Part shown: positions 17,732-53,599 of the stretch, in pieces
How positions within the stretch are numbered: position 1 is the stretch's first letter
Layout: each line of letters begins with the position of its first letter
Origin: Spirochaeta lutea
GTDB lineage: Bacteria > Spirochaetota > Spirochaetia > DSM-27196 > Salinispiraceae
Length of the DNA: 64,000 nt
NCBI RefSeq assembly: GCF_000758165.1
Contig: NZ_JNUP01000065.1
Coordinates: 85,359-149,358 of the forward strand
Direction of reading: 5' to 3'
Made by a program: the position numbers and the translations under genes
The notes under the pieces: model-generated
What the model was told of the DNA's origin: nothing
The model's input: only the letters and a program-made list of their open reading frames with translations
Database searches by the model: none

Positions 17732-17840
17732 TATAGTGCGCAAAAGCTTGTAACATTGCACCTCGGAGACACAACCCATGGGTGGGATTATAAACTGCTC
17801 CGCTATATCTGATGTCGTTTACAACCTTTTGCGCACAATG
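17732..17840 (-). mobile_element. 109-bp MITE-like element, copy 2
   Basis: It has terminal inverted repeats like the other copies and lies between direct repeats gaaggggta (17723-17731) and gaagggtta (17841-17849), 8 of 9 identical. The right repeat contains the serA stop codon. The element separates serA from its terminator. It is inverted relative to copy 1. Confidence 0.87.
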
Positions 17841-17846
17841 GAAGGG

Positions 17847-30809: not shown

Positions 30810-30918
30810 CCTAGTGCGCAAACGGTTGTACCATTGTACCCCGGCAGCACCACCCATGGACGGAATTCTGGGGTGATAGACTATACCTGGTGCCGATTAC
30901 AACCCTTTACGCACTACA
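30810..30918 (-). mobile_element. 109-bp MITE-like element, copy 3
   Basis: It is the most diverged full copy. The terminal repeats read tagtgcgcaaacggttgta and tacaaccctttacgcacta. Flanking 9-mers tagaaccta (30801-30809) and taaaacgta (30919-30927) match at 7 of 9 positions. Its length is the same 109 bp. It lies between nif3 and lspA and ends 21 bp before the lspA ATG. Confidence 0.8.
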
Positions 30919-37315: not shown

Positions 37316-37424
37316 TATAGTGTGCAAAAGGTTGTAATTTTGCAACCCGGCGACACCACCCATGGGTTGAATTATTGGTTGCTCCGCTATATCTGGTGTA
37401 GTTTACAACCTTTTGCGCACTATC
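37316..37424 (-). mobile_element. 109-bp MITE-like element, copy 5
   Basis: It is flanked by perfect 9-bp direct repeats taaccggta (37307-37315 and 37425-37433). The terminal repeats pair over about 21 bp with one mismatch. It sits between the coiled-coil hypothetical gene, whose start is 80 bp away, and the tRNA-Ala terminator. Confidence 0.92.
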
Positions 37425-46242: not shown

Positions 46243-47508
46243 TTACTTCATGTCGGAGAGAATATTACTCCGGTTTTCCGCGTATTTCCGAATGAAGGTC
46301 TGGAAATCCTCTATGCGGATATCGCTGCTTATTGGACCGGGGAAGGTTTCTTTTGCTTGGTCAAAATTTTCTGCTGTAACGAAATGAGGAATCGGTGTTG
46401 CACCATGAAGGCGGTTTAGCCTCTGCAGGATGATGAACGCATCGGCCATATCTCCAAAGTACAGGGTTCCCTGTTCGTCTTCTCCGAAGCCGTACGCATA
46501 AATTGTATCGGTTATTTCTACCTCTGCAAAGGCGGTGCCCGAAACCGGTACGGCAACTGGCAGGTCAGGTATGGTGGCATCGGATAGAAGAATGTCCAAG
46601 GCCGCATCAACGGTGCCTTCGGCGGGATATTGACTGCGATTCTGGGTGTTGTTGGTGGGCCAGGGTGAATGGAAGGTTATATGCGCCACATCTCGGTATC
46701 CCCGGCGGTGGAGAATCCGGGCAAACTGGTACTGGTCAGGGTACCCAAGACCCTCCATCTGTTCGGTGTACATCCTCAGATCAACCTCCGGCATGGCCTG
46801 TTCCCGGGTGGTGTACGCCAAAACCGTTGAATCCGGATGATCTTCCAGGTACCCTGTCAGGGTGTCGGCCATAGCCAGGTCGGGTATGCCCGGTTCTAGG
46901 ATCGTTCTGACCTTGGCTGGATCCTTCATGTCATCTTCGGAGGAAATTTCTGAGTAGTTCTGGCGGATGTTCAAGCCCAGGATCCGGAAGGATTGGGCCC
47001 TGGCGCTCTCCCTCTGGCGTACTACCCAGCCTGCTTTAAGAACCTCCAGGTATTCTTGGTATCCCCAGAGGGGCAGCCGGTTAAAAAGAAGCTCCTTGGC
47101 CTTCTCCTGGTCAAACTCCGGAGCGGATAGCAGGGCATCGATGGCGTCTTGATCCTCGGCGAGGAGAAAATACACACCCAAGACATCGGCTCCACCCTGA
47201 TCCACCGCCTGGGGTAGGGTCTGGGCAAGGAAAAGAGGTTCCTCTTTCAGGCCGCCGAGTTCGCTGAGGTAGACTACATCATGGGTTTGCAATGCATCTA
47301 TGAGGAAGTCCTGGGCGTTTTCTCCCCTGGTCCGGATTACCCGGGCATACTCCTGGGCGTTCTCAGGCTTCACCCCTGGTCGGAATACGCTGGGAGGGGT
47401 GAACCATCCGAAGGGATCAATAAAGACCAGGGCGGCAAAGATGATGAGTCCGATGACCGTCAGCCGATATTTGCTATTGCTCTTGGGTTGTGTCGGAGTT
47501 TTTTCCAT
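46243..47508 (-). CDS. Membrane-anchored protein, possibly EreA/ChaN-like
   Basis: A 421-aa protein with one N-terminal membrane segment (about residues 15-34) and a large exported part. The stretch DALQTHDVVYLSELGGLKEEPLFL resembles the start of the EreA/ChaN-like (Tiki) superfamily fold, where a glutamate follows a hydrophobic strand. A later IPDLPVAVPVSGTAF region resembles the second strand. The match is weak and catalytic residues cannot be assigned. The start at 47508 lies 7 nt after a TATAGT box that is inside a 17-bp palindrome. It is upstream of fabH on one transcript. Confidence 0.5.
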   Translation of the reverse strand: MEKTPTQPKSNSKYRLTVIGLIIFAALVFIDPFGWFTPPSVFRPGVKPENAQEYARVIRTRGENAQDFLIDALQTHDVVYLSELGGLKEEPLFLAQTLPQAVDQGGADVLGVYFLLAEDQDAIDALLSAPEFDQEKAKELLFNRLPLWGYQEYLEVLKAGWVVRQRESARAQSFRILGLNIRQNYSEISSEDDMKDPAKVRTILEPGIPDLAMADTLTGYLEDHPDSTVLAYTTREQAMPEVDLRMYTEQMEGLGYPDQYQFARILHRRGYRDVAHITFHSPWPTNNTQNRSQYPAEGTVDAALDILLSDATIPDLPVAVPVSGTAFAEVEITDTIYAYGFGEDEQGTLYFGDMADAFIILQRLNRLHGATPIPHFVTAENFDQAKETFPGPISSDIRIEDFQTFIRKYAENRSNILSDMK

Positions 47509-47510
47509 GG

Positions 47511-47527
47511 CCAGTACTATATACTGG
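47511..47527 (-). promoter_or_regulatory. Palindrome over the -10 box of the ChaN/EreA-like gene
   Basis: The 17-bp inverted repeat ccagta-ctata-tactgg contains TATAGT (minus strand, 47516-47521), which ends 7 nt before the ATG. It could be an operator for the fabH unit. Confidence 0.4.
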
Positions 47528-47551
47528 TTGTGGGGCTTGAATCCACCCGGA

Positions 47552-47566
47552 AATAATGTAATTATT
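47552..47566. promoter_or_regulatory. A/T palindrome between divergent fab units
   Basis: aataat-gta-attatt is a perfect inverted repeat in the 200-bp gap between the fabH unit (minus) and fabG (plus). Its place fits a shared operator. Confidence 0.3.
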
Positions 47567-47628
47567 GAATCAAATTCAGGAATACGCCTTCCCACGGGAC
47601 AATCTTAGGGTGTATGGTCTGAAGGGTA

Positions 47629-48509: not shown

Positions 48510-48541
48510 GGTGGTATTTTTTATTGCTGTGGAGGCACTGT

Positions 48542-49786
48542 ATGGCACGACGGGTTGTTATCACCGGCATGGGCACGGTGAATCCCCTGGCTCATAACAC
48601 CGATGATTTCTGGCAGGCAATTAAGGCCGGGAAGAGCGGTATTGGGCCCATTACGAAGTTTGACACCACCAATCACGCCACGAAAATTGCTGGGGAGATC
48701 AAGAATTTTGATGTGCGAAACTATCTTGATCGGACCGAGGCCCGGAAGATGGAGGCCTTTTCCCATTATGCAGTGGTTAGCGCCCTGGAAGCCTGGCGGG
48801 ATTCGGGATTAACCGACGGGGATGTGGATCCTATTAAGGTTGGAGTGATTCTCGGTGTCGGTTTCGGGGGATTTGAAACCCTGGAAAGCGCCTACAAGAG
48901 CCTGATGGATAAGGGACCCGGCCGGGTTCCTCCTATGACGATTCCGAAACTGATTTCGAATATCGGACCCGGGAATATCGCCATAACCTTAAACGCCCAA
49001 GGCCCCAGTTACTCCCTTGCTACCGCCTGTGCGTCGGGTACGGATGCCATAGGACATAGTCTTCGGTCCATACAAGACGGGGTTACCGATGTGGTAATTA
49101 CCGGCGGGGTAGAGGCCGTCATCACGACACTGGGGATTGCATCCTTCAATGTCATTCATGCCCTGTCTACCCGGTACAATGATACCCCGGAAAAGGCCAG
49201 CAGACCCTTTGATAAGGATCGTGACGGGTTTGTCATGGGAGAAGGATCCGGCATTTTGATTCTGGAGGAGCTGGAACATGCCAGGGCACGGGGTGCTAGA
49301 ATCTACGCCGAGGTTGTGGGTGTGGGGGCTACCACGGATGCGAACCACCTGACTGCACCCCATCCCGAGGGTAGGGGGGCGATTCAGGCTATGCAGATGG
49401 CGCTGAACACAGCAGGGGTCTCGCCCCAACAGGTGGATTATATCAATGCCCACGGAACATCGACGCCCATCAACGATCCGGTGGAGACCAAGGCAATAAA
49501 GGCGGTCTTTCAGGACCACGCCTACTCCCTGAAGGTGAGTTCAACCAAATCCATGACCGGCCATTGCATCGGGGCTGCAGGGGCCATCGAGGCCATCATT
49601 TGTGCGAAGTCCATTGAGGATCAGTTTTTCCCGCCCACCATCAACCTGGATAATCCCGATCCGGACTGCGATTTAGACTACGTCCCTCACCGGGGATACC
49701 ACGGGCCCATCGAATATGCTATGTCCAACAGTTTGGGCTTCGGCGGACATAACGGTGTACTGTTATTGAGGAAGTTCCGGGATTAA
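48542..49786 (+). CDS. fabF: 3-oxoacyl-ACP synthase II
   Basis: A 414-aa ketoacyl synthase II, elongating acyl-ACP with malonyl-ACP. Catalytic residues are Cys (ATACASGTDAIGHS, near 165), His (YINAHGTSTPIND, near 305) and His (SMTGHCIGAAG, near 342). The C-terminal SNSLGFGGHNGVLL is typical. ATG 48542 follows a ggagg site; six in-frame codons upstream are not used. Confidence 0.96.
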   Translation: MARRVVITGMGTVNPLAHNTDDFWQAIKAGKSGIGPITKFDTTNHATKIAGEIKNFDVRNYLDRTEARKMEAFSHYAVVSALEAWRDSGLTDGDVDPIKVGVILGVGFGGFETLESAYKSLMDKGPGRVPPMTIPKLISNIGPGNIAITLNAQGPSYSLATACASGTDAIGHSLRSIQDGVTDVVITGGVEAVITTLGIASFNVIHALSTRYNDTPEKASRPFDKDRDGFVMGEGSGILILEELEHARARGARIYAEVVGVGATTDANHLTAPHPEGRGAIQAMQMALNTAGVSPQQVDYINAHGTSTPINDPVETKAIKAVFQDHAYSLKVSSTKSMTGHCIGAAGAIEAIICAKSIEDQFFPPTINLDNPDPDCDLDYVPHRGYHGPIEYAMSNSLGFGGHNGVLLLRKFRD

Positions 49787-50054: not shown

Positions 50055-51362
50055 ATGAAGCGATCCATTATTACCCTGGTTCTTGCCGGTTTGCTAGTCT
50101 TGGCGGCTGCGTCGCTGTTCTTGGATAGCCAGGGGAATTTTTCCCTGCTCTATGAAGGGAAACGGCTCATGGGACTTTTTGCCATGGTGCTACTCACCTT
50201 CCAGGTGTTTCTGGCCTCCCGACTGCCGCTTCTGGAGCGAGGATTCGGTCAGGATCGGCTGCTTGGCTACCATCGGCTGGTGGGAATCGGGGTACTGGTT
50301 ACCGCCCTCATTCACGGCGTTTTTGATATTATCTTCCAGCTGAGCGTCTACGGAAGTTTAATGCTCTATTTTCCCGGCGATCTTCCTAAGTTACTGGGAA
50401 GTTTCACCCTGGTGCTGTTGCTCTTGGTAGCCATTCCGGCACTTCTGCGGGGTTCCATTGCGATTTCCTATGATTCGTGGCGGAGAATTCACCGGATCGG
50501 TTTTTTCTTGGTGCCCCTGATGCTCATTCATAGTTTGGTACTTGGGACAACCATTCGGTACCAGCCTCTGGCTCTGGCCCTCTGGATCGGTTGCGCTGGC
50601 TTGTACGGGGTTTCTCTCGGATATCGGTTGGTTATCCAGATTCGGAAAAACCGCGATCCCTACCTGGTGGAATCTGTTCACCGGGAGACCCACGATGTAG
50701 TGAGTATCCGTGCGGCAGGCAAGCGCAAGGACTTCCTCCCCGGGCAATTTATGCTGGTTCAGATTAAAAAGGCCGGCAAAAAGAGCCCGGTTCACCCTTT
50801 TACTATCAGTGCCCCTCCATCTTCTGAGGAGCTGCGTTTTTCAGTGAAGGCTATCGGTGATTTCTCCGGAGAGGATATTCCCGATCTCACTGTTGGTGAT
50901 GAGCTGGTTCTCGAGGGGCCCTACGGCTGGTTCAGCCATGTGAGGTTTCCCTTGTCCGCCCCGCTGCTGTTCATTGCCGGGGGAATCGGTATTACACCCT
51001 TTCTGAGTATGCTGGCTTTCTTGGCTGAGCATGATCCTGATCGCCGTGTCATGCTGGTGTGGGGAAACAAAGAACCGAAGGATGCGGGGTTCCAGGATGA
51101 GTTAGTGCGCTATAAATCTTCCATGCGGGCCCTGTCCGTGTTGCATGTATTTTCTCATTCTACAGATAATCATGAGGTCTTGTCCGATCCCTGGGTTTCA
51201 GGTTTTGTGACCACTGAACTTTTAAACACCCGGCTTACCGATTTGGACTCATGGGGTGTAATGCTCTGCGGCCCCCCGGTGATGATGAAGAAACTGGTTC
51301 CTGATCTTTTGGCTGCCGGGGTGGAAAAAAAGAACCTCTTATATGAGCGCTTTGATTTTTAA
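50055..51362 (+). CDS. Ferric-reductase-like transmembrane flavoprotein
   Basis: A 435-aa membrane protein. The N-terminal 200 residues hold about six membrane segments, with histidines suited to haem (LGYHRLVGIGV, TALIHGVFD, WRRIHRIGF, MLIHSLVLG). An FAD-binding domain follows (HPFTISAPPSSEEL) and then an NAD(P) domain (FIAGGIGITPFLSML, MLCGPPVMMKKL). It would pass electrons from NAD(P)H through FAD and haem across the inner membrane to ferric iron or another acceptor. A cggagg site precedes the ATG. A mobile element begins 9 bp after the stop. The DOMON gene downstream may supply a haem partner. Confidence 0.88.
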   Translation: MKRSIITLVLAGLLVLAAASLFLDSQGNFSLLYEGKRLMGLFAMVLLTFQVFLASRLPLLERGFGQDRLLGYHRLVGIGVLVTALIHGVFDIIFQLSVYGSLMLYFPGDLPKLLGSFTLVLLLLVAIPALLRGSIAISYDSWRRIHRIGFFLVPLMLIHSLVLGTTIRYQPLALALWIGCAGLYGVSLGYRLVIQIRKNRDPYLVESVHRETHDVVSIRAAGKRKDFLPGQFMLVQIKKAGKKSPVHPFTISAPPSSEELRFSVKAIGDFSGEDIPDLTVGDELVLEGPYGWFSHVRFPLSAPLLFIAGGIGITPFLSMLAFLAEHDPDRRVMLVWGNKEPKDAGFQDELVRYKSSMRALSVLHVFSHSTDNHEVLSDPWVSGFVTTELLNTRLTDLDSWGVMLCGPPVMMKKLVPDLLAAGVEKKNLLYERFDF

Positions 51363-51765
51363 AAGGATTCCGTAGTGCGCAAAAGGTTGTAAACGACACC
51401 AGATATAGGGGAGCATCCCATAAGTCCACCCATGGGTGGTGTCCCCGGGGTACAATGTTACAACCTTTTGCGCACGATGAAAGGATTCTGATCCGCGAAG
51501 GATTGTGACGGTTCCCCTCCGCGACACCGCATCTGGGACCAAAAGCGCTATCAGTGACCGGGACTGCATGTGACCGGGGCCGACCGCCGCGGAGTGGTAC
51601 CAGAACACAAAGGGTAGTGCTTAATAAAGATTTGGGTTGAACCCCCGGGTAAAGCGTATTATTTTTGTCAGAAATACAAGAAGCCGGTGGAGGAAGATGG
51701 GTGTTGCCATGCCTTAGGCATTGGGGGCGCATGGTTTCTGGCACCGGCGGAACAAGGATGGTGCT
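51363..51765 (+). other. 403-bp gap: mobile element copy 6 and DOMON 5' region
   Basis: The left part is mobile element copy 6. The rest, 51489-51765, holds no convincing ORF. An outer stem gccggtg/caccggc (about 51683-51689 with 51742-51748) encloses atgcc-tta-ggcat (51709-51721) shortly before the DOMON ribosome site. I see no known riboswitch. Confidence 0.5.
51371..51479 (+). mobile_element. 109-bp MITE-like element, copy 6
   Basis: It lies between perfect 9-bp direct repeats aaaggattc (51362-51370 and 51480-51488). The left repeat begins with the last base of the upstream stop codon. Orientation is as in copy 1. The inner palindrome ccaccc-at-gggtgg is intact. Confidence 0.92.
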
Positions 51766-52326
51766 ATGAACCGAAAGGGATTACTGTTTATTCTTACACT
51801 TAGCCTAATACCGGCATCGCTCAGCTTCGGACAGACGGGCCTCGGGGCGGCGGCCTCCCAGGCTGAGATTACCGCCCAGGGTTACGACTATTTCAGCTCC
51901 CAGGGATATAACCTTGGCATTAAGGTTCAGGGGGAAGCTTTACAGGTGTACATGAGCGCCCCGACTACAGGCTGGCTGGCTGTGGGATTTAATCCCTCCC
52001 GGAGGATGAGAGACGCAAACATTACCATAGGGTATGCGAAAGACGGCGAGCTTACGATTCGTGATGATTACGGCATTGCGGATACCATGCATGGTCCTGA
52101 TACCGCCCGGGGGGGCAGTGATGATGTTACCCTCCTGGCAGGGGGTGAGGCCGCCGGACGCACATGGTTCGAGTTTCAGATTCCCCTGGACTCCGGGGAT
52201 TCCATGGACAGGGCCTTGGAACGGGGAAAAACCTACCCGGTTATTTGGGCCTTCGGTCCGAATAACCGAGATGATTTCCGGACGGTTCATGGCCGGCGGG
52301 GTTCATTCAGAATTACTATACCCTAA
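51766..52326 (+). CDS. Exported DOMON-domain protein
   Basis: A 186-aa protein with signal peptide (cleavage near SLSFG-QTG). The mature part is a DOMON fold, with the core GWLAVGFNPSRRMRDANITIGY and a C-terminal histidine (RTVHGRRGSF). In DOMON cytochromes a Met and a His bind haem b; here M in SRRM and H in RTVH are candidates. It would sit in the periplasm as a haem or sugar-binding electron carrier. ATG 51766 follows aaggatgg. It lies between the ferric-reductase-like gene and the DUF3592 gene. Confidence 0.82.
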   Translation: MNRKGLLFILTLSLIPASLSFGQTGLGAAASQAEITAQGYDYFSSQGYNLGIKVQGEALQVYMSAPTTGWLAVGFNPSRRMRDANITIGYAKDGELTIRDDYGIADTMHGPDTARGGSDDVTLLAGGEAAGRTWFEFQIPLDSGDSMDRALERGKTYPVIWAFGPNNRDDFRTVHGRRGSFRITIP

Positions 52327-52338
52327 TAGGAGGTTGTA

Positions 52339-52782
52339 TTGACGTTATCACGGTTGTTCTCAAGAATTTTTTATGTTCTCGGTATCGTGCTTATCGGTGT
52401 CGGGGGGGCAGTACTTGTTCAGAAGCTGGTTTTTCAATCCAGCAGTGTGCAGACCATGGGTCTCGTGGTGGATGTGCGGGTGGTTCAGAACCAGGTACTG
52501 TTTATGGACGATGGCACAGGCTTTCATTACTATCCCACGGTGGAATTCTCCGCCAATGACGGCCGGGCCTACCGCTTCGAATCCCCTGCCGGGGTAACCT
52601 CGGTTTCCTATGAAAAGGGGCAGGAGGTGCCGGTGTTGTACCGTACCCAAGATCCCGGTGATGCTATGATCGCCACAACCTGGGGACTCTACGGTCTGCC
52701 GATTATTTTCGGAGGTACTGGGGTATTGTTTGTTCTCTTCGGTTTGGTGGCCCAGCGTGGCTTTGATAAAAAGAAGTACTGA
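52339..52782 (+). CDS. DUF3592 membrane protein
   Basis: A 147-aa protein with TTG start behind a strong aggagg site. Two membrane segments (about residues 9-31 and 115-137) flank a central domain of the DUF3592 type (YYPTVEFSANDGRAYRFES, GQEVPVLYRTQDPGDA). The function is unknown. The DOMON stop is 12 bp upstream, so both are on one transcript ended by the terminator at 52826. Confidence 0.8.
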   Translation: MTLSRLFSRIFYVLGIVLIGVGGAVLVQKLVFQSSSVQTMGLVVDVRVVQNQVLFMDDGTGFHYYPTVEFSANDGRAYRFESPAGVTSVSYEKGQEVPVLYRTQDPGDAMIATTWGLYGLPIIFGGTGVLFVLFGLVAQRGFDKKKY

Positions 52783-52978: not shown

Positions 52979-53599
52979 TTAGCGTTTTTTAGCGCTGTTG
53001 TTCCGCTCTTCTACAATCTCTTCAATTTTGTTTGAAAGAGCCTGAATATCGATGGGTTTTGCCATAAACGCATCTGCACCTGCTTCGGTAATGGCTGCCT
53101 CTGTGGATGCATCTCCAGAAATACCGACAATTACCGGCTGGGCAATTCCCGTATCATCACGAAGAGATTTACAGAGCCGTACGCCGTCCACCCCGGGAAG
53201 ATCCACATCTAGAATGATGAGATGAGGCTTCTTCTCAGCGCTGAGCTTACCGGCCTCAAATCCGTCGAAGGCTTGGTAAATGGTATAATCTTCGTTGATT
53301 ATTTCCAAGCCCTTCTTGATGCTGTCATTCAGTTCCCGCTCGTCATCAACGATCAGGACTGTATCAATGGAGAGCTTGTCCTCAAGAAATTTGTGTAACT
53401 CATCAGGCATCCTCATTCCACGTTCGGTAAGGAAGCTGATAAGGTCCTCGGAGTAGACCCGGTACTGACCACCCGGGGTCTGAAATGCCTGCAAGTAGCC
53501 ATTTTTAATCCAATTAATTGCAGTTTGGTTGACCACACCGCAAATATTGGCTACTTCGAGAGCAGAGAAAATACGAATCTTTTTGTCTGTTCTTGCCAT
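52979..53599 (-). CDS. HTH (MerR/excisionase-type) and receiver domain protein
   Basis: A 206-aa protein. Residues about 8-62 are a MerR/HTH_17-like DNA-binding domain (ALEVANICGVVNQTAINWIKNGYL...TPGGQYRVYSEDL). Residues about 80-200 are a receiver with acidic pair (VDDE), phospho-acceptor (ILDVDLPGVDG), Ser/Thr (GISGD) and Lys (MAKPID). The order is the reverse of usual response regulators, where the receiver comes first. The tail is basic. It has its own promoter with TTGACA, and no kinase is adjacent. Confidence 0.88.
   Translation of the reverse strand: MARTDKKIRIFSALEVANICGVVNQTAINWIKNGYLQAFQTPGGQYRVYSEDLISFLTERGMRMPDELHKFLEDKLSIDTVLIVDDERELNDSIKKGLEIINEDYTIYQAFDGFEAGKLSAEKKPHLIILDVDLPGVDGVRLCKSLRDDTGIAQPVIVGISGDASTEAAITEAGADAFMAKPIDIQALSNKIEEIVEERNNSAKKR

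Follow-up and report, generated by a model that had tools for sequence, protein, structure and literature searches.

Known FRE and DOMON electron transfer systems

Several described systems combine a membrane b cytochrome with an electron-transferring partner. SpNOX is a single polypeptide carrying a bis-haem membrane domain and an FAD/NAD(P)H domain, and we know of no DOMON or DUF3592 partner for it. In the MsrPQ system, MsrQ (YedZ) is a membrane protein of the ferric reductase type (FRE) that lacks a flavin domain and feeds a periplasmic partner. DOMON domains are served by a membrane b cytochrome in CYBDOM proteins, in which DOMON and cytochrome b561 share one polypeptide, and a related fold forms the cytochrome domain of the secreted flavin dehydrogenases cellobiose dehydrogenase (CDH) and pyranose dehydrogenase. 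FRE proteins that bear an extracellular DOMON are also on record in eukaryotes, and DOMON is listed there as an electron-transfer agent (PMC3591440). Here we describe a locus from Spirochaeta lutea in which genes for an FRE, a DOMON and a DUF3592 protein follow one another on the forward strand at positions 50055-52782 of a 64,000-nucleotide stretch of contig NZ_JNUP01000065.1 (hereafter the window, whose numbering is used throughout).

The locus resembles each of these systems in part. The window FRE has the composition of SpNOX, and its four predicted haem-binding His align with those of SpNOX. Short flavin-less FREs of relatives share the shape of MsrQ, whereas the window FRE has its own flavin domain and a DOMON protein as its neighbour. 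As in CYBDOM, a DOMON domain would be served by a membrane b cytochrome, but in the window the two are encoded separately, and the membrane partner is of the NOX/FRE kind instead of b561. The DOMON protein is like the cytochrome domain of CDH and pyranose dehydrogenase in fold and in its Met/His haem ligation pattern, although that domain belongs there to a secreted flavin dehydrogenase. The eukaryotic FRE-DOMON proteins are fused and belong to one eukaryotic clade (PMC3591440), in contrast to the separate bacterial genes of the window. The literature listings and passages searched did not describe an FRE-DOMON gene pair in bacteria, although it may have been mentioned before. By title, the searches gave nothing relevant on DUF3592, no paper on DUF5777 and, among the papers listed, nothing relevant on DOMON in spirochaetes.

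The three open reading frames (ORFs) encode, in order, the FRE (50055-51362, 435 amino acids), the DOMON protein (51766-52326, 186 amino acids from an ATG, with an alternative TTG start at 51721) and the DUF3592 protein (52339-52782, 147 amino acids from a TTG preceded by AGGAGG). The ORFs and their Pfam domains bear out the preliminary description of a three-gene group in order on one strand. DUF3592 begins 12 bp after DOMON, and the 403 bp between FRE and DOMON contain a multicopy palindromic repeat. Hydropathy and structural models point to a membrane flavohaem protein, an exported β-sandwich, and a protein with two membrane helices and a β domain between them, respectively.

The FRE membrane reductase

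Judged from its sequence, FRE is a full-length flavohaem protein of the NOX/ferric reductase type. Pfam recognised Ferric_reduct (52 bits), NAD_binding_1 (58.7 bits), NAD_binding_6 (25.9 bits) and FAD_binding_8 (25.0 bits), and the best solved relative was SpNOX (PDB 8qt6; E 1.8e-22; residues 42-434 aligned), with His matched in both haem-binding membrane helices. The protein has two His pairs spaced by 12-14 residues in membrane helices, H73-X13-H87 and H146-X12-H159. In an alignment of the window FRE with 15 relatives, H87, H146 and H159 were present in 16/16 rows and H73 in 15/16, the sole exception being that of G336, a genome of the same family, with Gln at this position. By analogy with SpNOX (PMC11031084), H73/H146 would hold the inner haem and H87/H159 the outer one. 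Together with the His pairs, the motifs HPFTI at 247 (FAD) and GIGITP at 310 (NAD(P)H) satisfy the FAD, NADPH and His-pair filters for bacterial NOX given in PMC5676040. The four haem His and the FAD and NAD(P)H motifs of NOX type uphold the transmembrane flavohaem reductase proposed in the preliminary description. Assignment as MsrQ was ruled out by score (9.2 bits against a family cut-off of 130).

A short, exported-looking family with no Pfam match is encoded directly before other FRE genes (L138:5403-5894 and L135:4711-5181), and FRE proteins may have several unrelated exported partners.

The DOMON protein

DOMON is the only domain above its Pfam cut-off in the 186-residue protein (64.9 bits against 32.7), which does not combine DOMON with cytochrome b561 in one polypeptide as CYBDOM proteins do. 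The N terminus is a signal-like segment, and the absence of any Cys rules out a lipoprotein on sequence grounds. Among 59 aligned rows (the window protein and 58 relatives), M81 and H175, the candidate axial ligands, were each present in 56 and were lost jointly in the same three rows (L241, L074 and L240), as expected of axial ligands. H109 (window 52090-52092) was kept in 57/59 rows. Since these include two of the three rows without M81 and H175, H109 does not simply belong with the candidate ligand pair.

The AlphaFold2 model of DOMON (mean predicted local distance difference test score, pLDDT, 89.2) matched the cytochrome domains of pyranose and cellobiose dehydrogenases with Z 14.3-15.3 and a root-mean-square deviation of 2.4-2.6 Å over 148-151 residues (VIA-align), at a sequence identity of only 9-15%. 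Further matches were dopamine β-hydroxylase (Z 14.7), ethylbenzene dehydrogenase (12.8) and Nxr (12.2); the rows that followed were carbohydrate-binding modules with Z near 8, and unrelated rows scored about 8 or less. Searches of PDB sequences with DOMON, by phmmer and by profile, gave no match. The haem ligands of CDH are Met65 and His163 (PMC11112829), and window M81/H175 are candidate counterparts of these residues, likened by ligand pattern and fold. The fold and the paired conservation of the ligands support the exported DOMON protein with candidate haem ligands, as first described, as one of haem-b type.

Linkage of DOMON and FRE genes

The neighbourhoods of DOMON genes were surveyed in three samples. 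The phylum sample comprised 296 genomes, 36 of which had DOMON in 38 places, and all 37 loci besides the window were examined. The order sample comprised 46 genomes, with DOMON in 21 of them at 24 places, 23 besides the window (22 newly fetched, and L087). The third was a scan of named genomes, in which an alignment query (A1) retrieved 250 DOMON relatives, from which 80 loci were kept, and a single DOMON sequence as query retrieved none.

At four of the 23 other order sites (L232, L234, L236 and L238), the gene that immediately follows DOMON, in the same direction, encodes a flavin-less FRE of 217-235 amino acids with all four His kept. In the named-genome scan, an FRE of at least 30 bits lay within two genes of DOMON on the same strand in 8/80 loci (L273, L275, L311, L315, L300, L304, L305 and L268), the score cut having been set after the hits were seen; it excluded a weak 70-residue FRE match of 15 bits in L264. 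The first four of these loci are taken to be the same contigs as L232, L234, L236 and L238, and the record of L304 is titled Desulfuromonadaceae. The gene order of the window recurs in L305, where a full-length FRE lies 83 bp before DOMON. L268 (Candidatus Aegiribacteria) encodes, all on one strand, two DOMONs, a full-length FRE and a barrel protein (L268:1510-4751) taken as DUF5777-like from its clustering with that of L252, a 62-bit match to DUF5777.

On a tree of 139 DOMON rows, the FRE-linked rows required five label changes, four of them forced by supported branches, and none of 500 shuffles gave so low a number, a result helped by near-copies. As L268 supplies two of the rows, we count three or more lineages of DOMON with FRE linkage outside the window (the clade with flavin-less FREs, L305 and L268), and we regard this linkage as a recurrent but minority partnership. 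The window DOMON itself sits on a long branch with unsupported placement and no supported sister.

Other DOMON neighbourhoods differ. DOMON genes beside a DUF5777-like β-barrel gene (21/80 named-genome loci) come mostly from Cloacimonadota, Fermentibacterota and WOR-3. In the phylum sample, the small membrane protein that follows DOMON in L054 and L055 reads like cytochrome b561, and genes near DOMON in L056 read as SCO and COX1, with neighbour clusters in common with L070 and L072.

DUF3592 and the history of the three genes

The DUF3592 protein matches PF12158 at 35.7 bits (gathering cut-off 25.3), and its model (pLDDT 85.9) shows two membrane helices, residues 3-34 and 114-141, around a β domain. 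G41 and F131 are the sole invariant residues of a 16-row alignment, in which no Cys or His is conserved; a role as redox carrier is therefore unlikely for the protein itself and was set aside. Foldseek matches of the model were weak (best, a BK-channel β subunit, E 5.3e-4, TM-score 0.31) and were not used.

In G203, a genome of the sister genus, the block is syntenic, with fabH, an unknown gene, fabG, fabF, FRE (40% identity), a 163-residue ORF, a receiver protein and a recX-like gene, followed by two more genes read as ribosomal. The 163-residue ORF, missed by Pfam, is a relative of the window DUF3592 protein (86 bits, E 1.7e-26), and a search for DOMON in G203 found none. In G336, a flavin-less FRE of 202 amino acids is followed after 77 bp by a DUF3592 protein with 50% identity, without DOMON at the locus; this genome is 57% complete, so that error or truncation may be involved. 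The third relative, G337, gave no DUF3592 match and weak FRE matches. A search of the order sample with the DUF3592 protein gave matches in 31/46 genomes, at 33 places other than its own, 18 of which were examined (16 together with L132 and L089): FRE was adjacent in two (L132 and L181) and DOMON in none.

Among the 296 phylum genomes, DOMON and DUF3592 share a neighbourhood, by coordinates, in the window genome only, and the full trio was found at none of the 37 phylum-sample, 23 order or 80 named-genome DOMON sites. The preliminary view of the three genes as one unit accordingly fails the test of co-occurrence: no other DOMON-DUF3592 pair was found, and DUF3592 goes with FRE in two family relatives. 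The gene order of relatives indicates that DUF3592 belongs with FRE rather than with DOMON, and that it stays beside a flavin-less FRE in G336 hints at a tie to the membrane part of FRE. The simplest history would be that FRE and DUF3592 formed a pair early on and that DOMON entered between them in the window lineage; the alternative would be two losses.

A proposed electron path and its alternatives

We propose, with a probability of about one half, that FRE acts as an NAD(P)H reductase feeding an exported DOMON carrier, and that DUF3592 is an older companion of FRE, DOMON having been inserted between them. NAD(P)H would reduce FRE-bound FAD on the cytoplasmic side of the inner membrane, and a stack of two b haems, held by H73/H146 and then H87/H159, would lead the electrons to the other side. 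The exported DOMON protein would bind a single haem b, with Met81 and His175 as its ligands, take electrons from the outer haem of FRE and serve as a mobile one-electron carrier in the periplasm, with DUF3592 probably being an assembly or stabilising subunit and not a carrier. The domains, haem-ligand patterns, recurrent FRE-DOMON linkage and FRE-DUF3592 synteny are read from sequence and comparison; haem occupancy, the direction of electron flow, a direct contact between FRE and DOMON and the role of DUF3592 are what we infer. The electron path of the preliminary description gains from the reductase, the haem-b-type DOMON and the recurrent FRE-DOMON neighbourhood, and finds no support in the trio as a conserved unit; from FRE to DOMON, it is a reasonable and moderately supported hypothesis.

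Several observations weigh against this proposal. None of the 37 other DOMON sites of the phylum sample had an FRE membrane domain within about 5 kb; the one weak match to the FRE query, in L068, is of 250 residues and looks like a lone flavin domain. The commonest neighbour clusters of DOMON in the named-genome loci were DUF5777-like barrels (21/80), COX1 (11/80) and SCO1/SenC (9/80). FRE was enriched near DOMON (8/171 near genes against 1/477 others, with a ninth FRE, in L275, lying farther from DOMON), but the Fisher p of 1.4e-4 overstates this, as related loci are counted separately and the score cut was chosen post hoc. Given the 403-bp gap and its mobile repeat, co-transcription of FRE and DOMON is unsure. 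As to haem supply, ferrochelatase (PF00762) had no match in this 96%-complete genome, compared with 8/14 control genomes with a match, and AhbD reached 46.9 bits, below its cut-off of 500, all 14 controls matching too and one of them above the cut-off. With no ferrochelatase and no AhbD above the cut-off, haem would have to come from uptake or elsewhere, or from an unrecognised route.

The working pair could instead be FRE and DUF3592, with DOMON acquired later, placed between them by chance and working with other partners in the cell. This would agree with the lack of DOMON at the matching loci of the two relatives in the family, with the highly varied neighbours of DOMON across loci, with the mobile repeat in the FRE-DOMON gap and with the long, sisterless branch of the window DOMON. 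We nevertheless consider chance neighbourhood possible rather than probable, since FRE-DOMON linkage arose several times elsewhere, DOMON retains both ligands, and DUF3592 starts 12 bp further on, on the same strand. That FRE is a NOX-like oxidase passing electrons to oxygen to give superoxide, with DOMON as a separate protein such as a haem store or sensor, seems improbable: flavin-less FREs pair with DOMON in relatives, which fits an electron relay better than a full NOX, and the choice of acceptor is not readable from sequence. The group might also be a ferric reductase for iron uptake, the preliminary description having named iron as a possible acceptor; for this speak the family name (Ferric_reduct) and the reduction of ferric iron by plant haem-DOMON proteins (CYBDOM; PMC10784544). 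We hold this to be very unlikely: a Pfam scan of flanking genes recognised no iron transporter or iron regulator, no iron-specific feature came to light, and none of the tests made supports the step to iron.

The repeat between FRE and DOMON and the flanking genes

The palindromic repeat in the gap, which resembles a miniature inverted-repeat transposable element (MITE), spans about 105 bp (51373-51477) with terminal inverted repeats of about 20 bp, or wider arms at 51368-51392 and 51458-51482. Direct reading and a flank test identified the two copies of a target-site duplication, AAAGGATTC, at 51362-51370, where it shares one base with the end of the FRE stop codon, and at 51480-51488. The window holds five copies of the repeat (2278-2380, 17733-17843, 30814-30917, 37317-37422 and 51363-51490). 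With one mismatch or less, the 18-base repeat end matched the genome 112 times forward and 117 times in reverse, and 0 times in a backward control; these 229 matches in 3.5 Mb imply more than 100 repeat copies. The best flanking direct repeats of 26 copies averaged 7.96 bases, compared with 5.29 (sd 0.21) for swapped flanks, and reached at least 8 bases in 15 of the 26. Sequence and flanks thus fit a transposed MITE-like element with duplications of about 9 bp. The repeat was found at none of the loci fetched outside this genome. Rfam recognised only tRNA in the window, so that the gap repeat matches no known RNA family at that threshold. Its RNA would fold strongly (z -4.7), but the repeat lacks a T run behind it and so is not necessarily a terminator.

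Directly upstream of FRE, on the forward strand, lies a fabF-type ketoacyl synthase gene (48524-49786, by Pfam), fabF being followed by FRE in the sister genus too. Downstream, on the reverse strand, a gene for a protein with a helix-turn-helix and a response-regulator receiver domain (52979-53599, by Pfam) is likewise syntenic there. A 450-residue protein with no Pfam match is encoded at 46243-47595 and has a syntenic counterpart of 37% identity in the sister genus.

Implications for bacterial DOMON and FRE proteins

Beyond this locus, it is conceivable, though we regard it as speculative, that an FRE or flavin-less FRE together with an exported DOMON protein constitutes a recurring, independently assembled module for electron export that uses b haems only. 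In Fermentibacterota, such a module might reach the outer membrane via a DUF5777-like barrel, as the gene order of L268 suggests, and would then parallel the porin-cytochrome conduits while dispensing with c-type cytochromes. The electron path proposed for the window would, if correct, give bacterial DOMON proteins, as well as those bacterial NOX/FRE proteins still lacking an assigned acceptor, an electron-transfer partner that can be tested.
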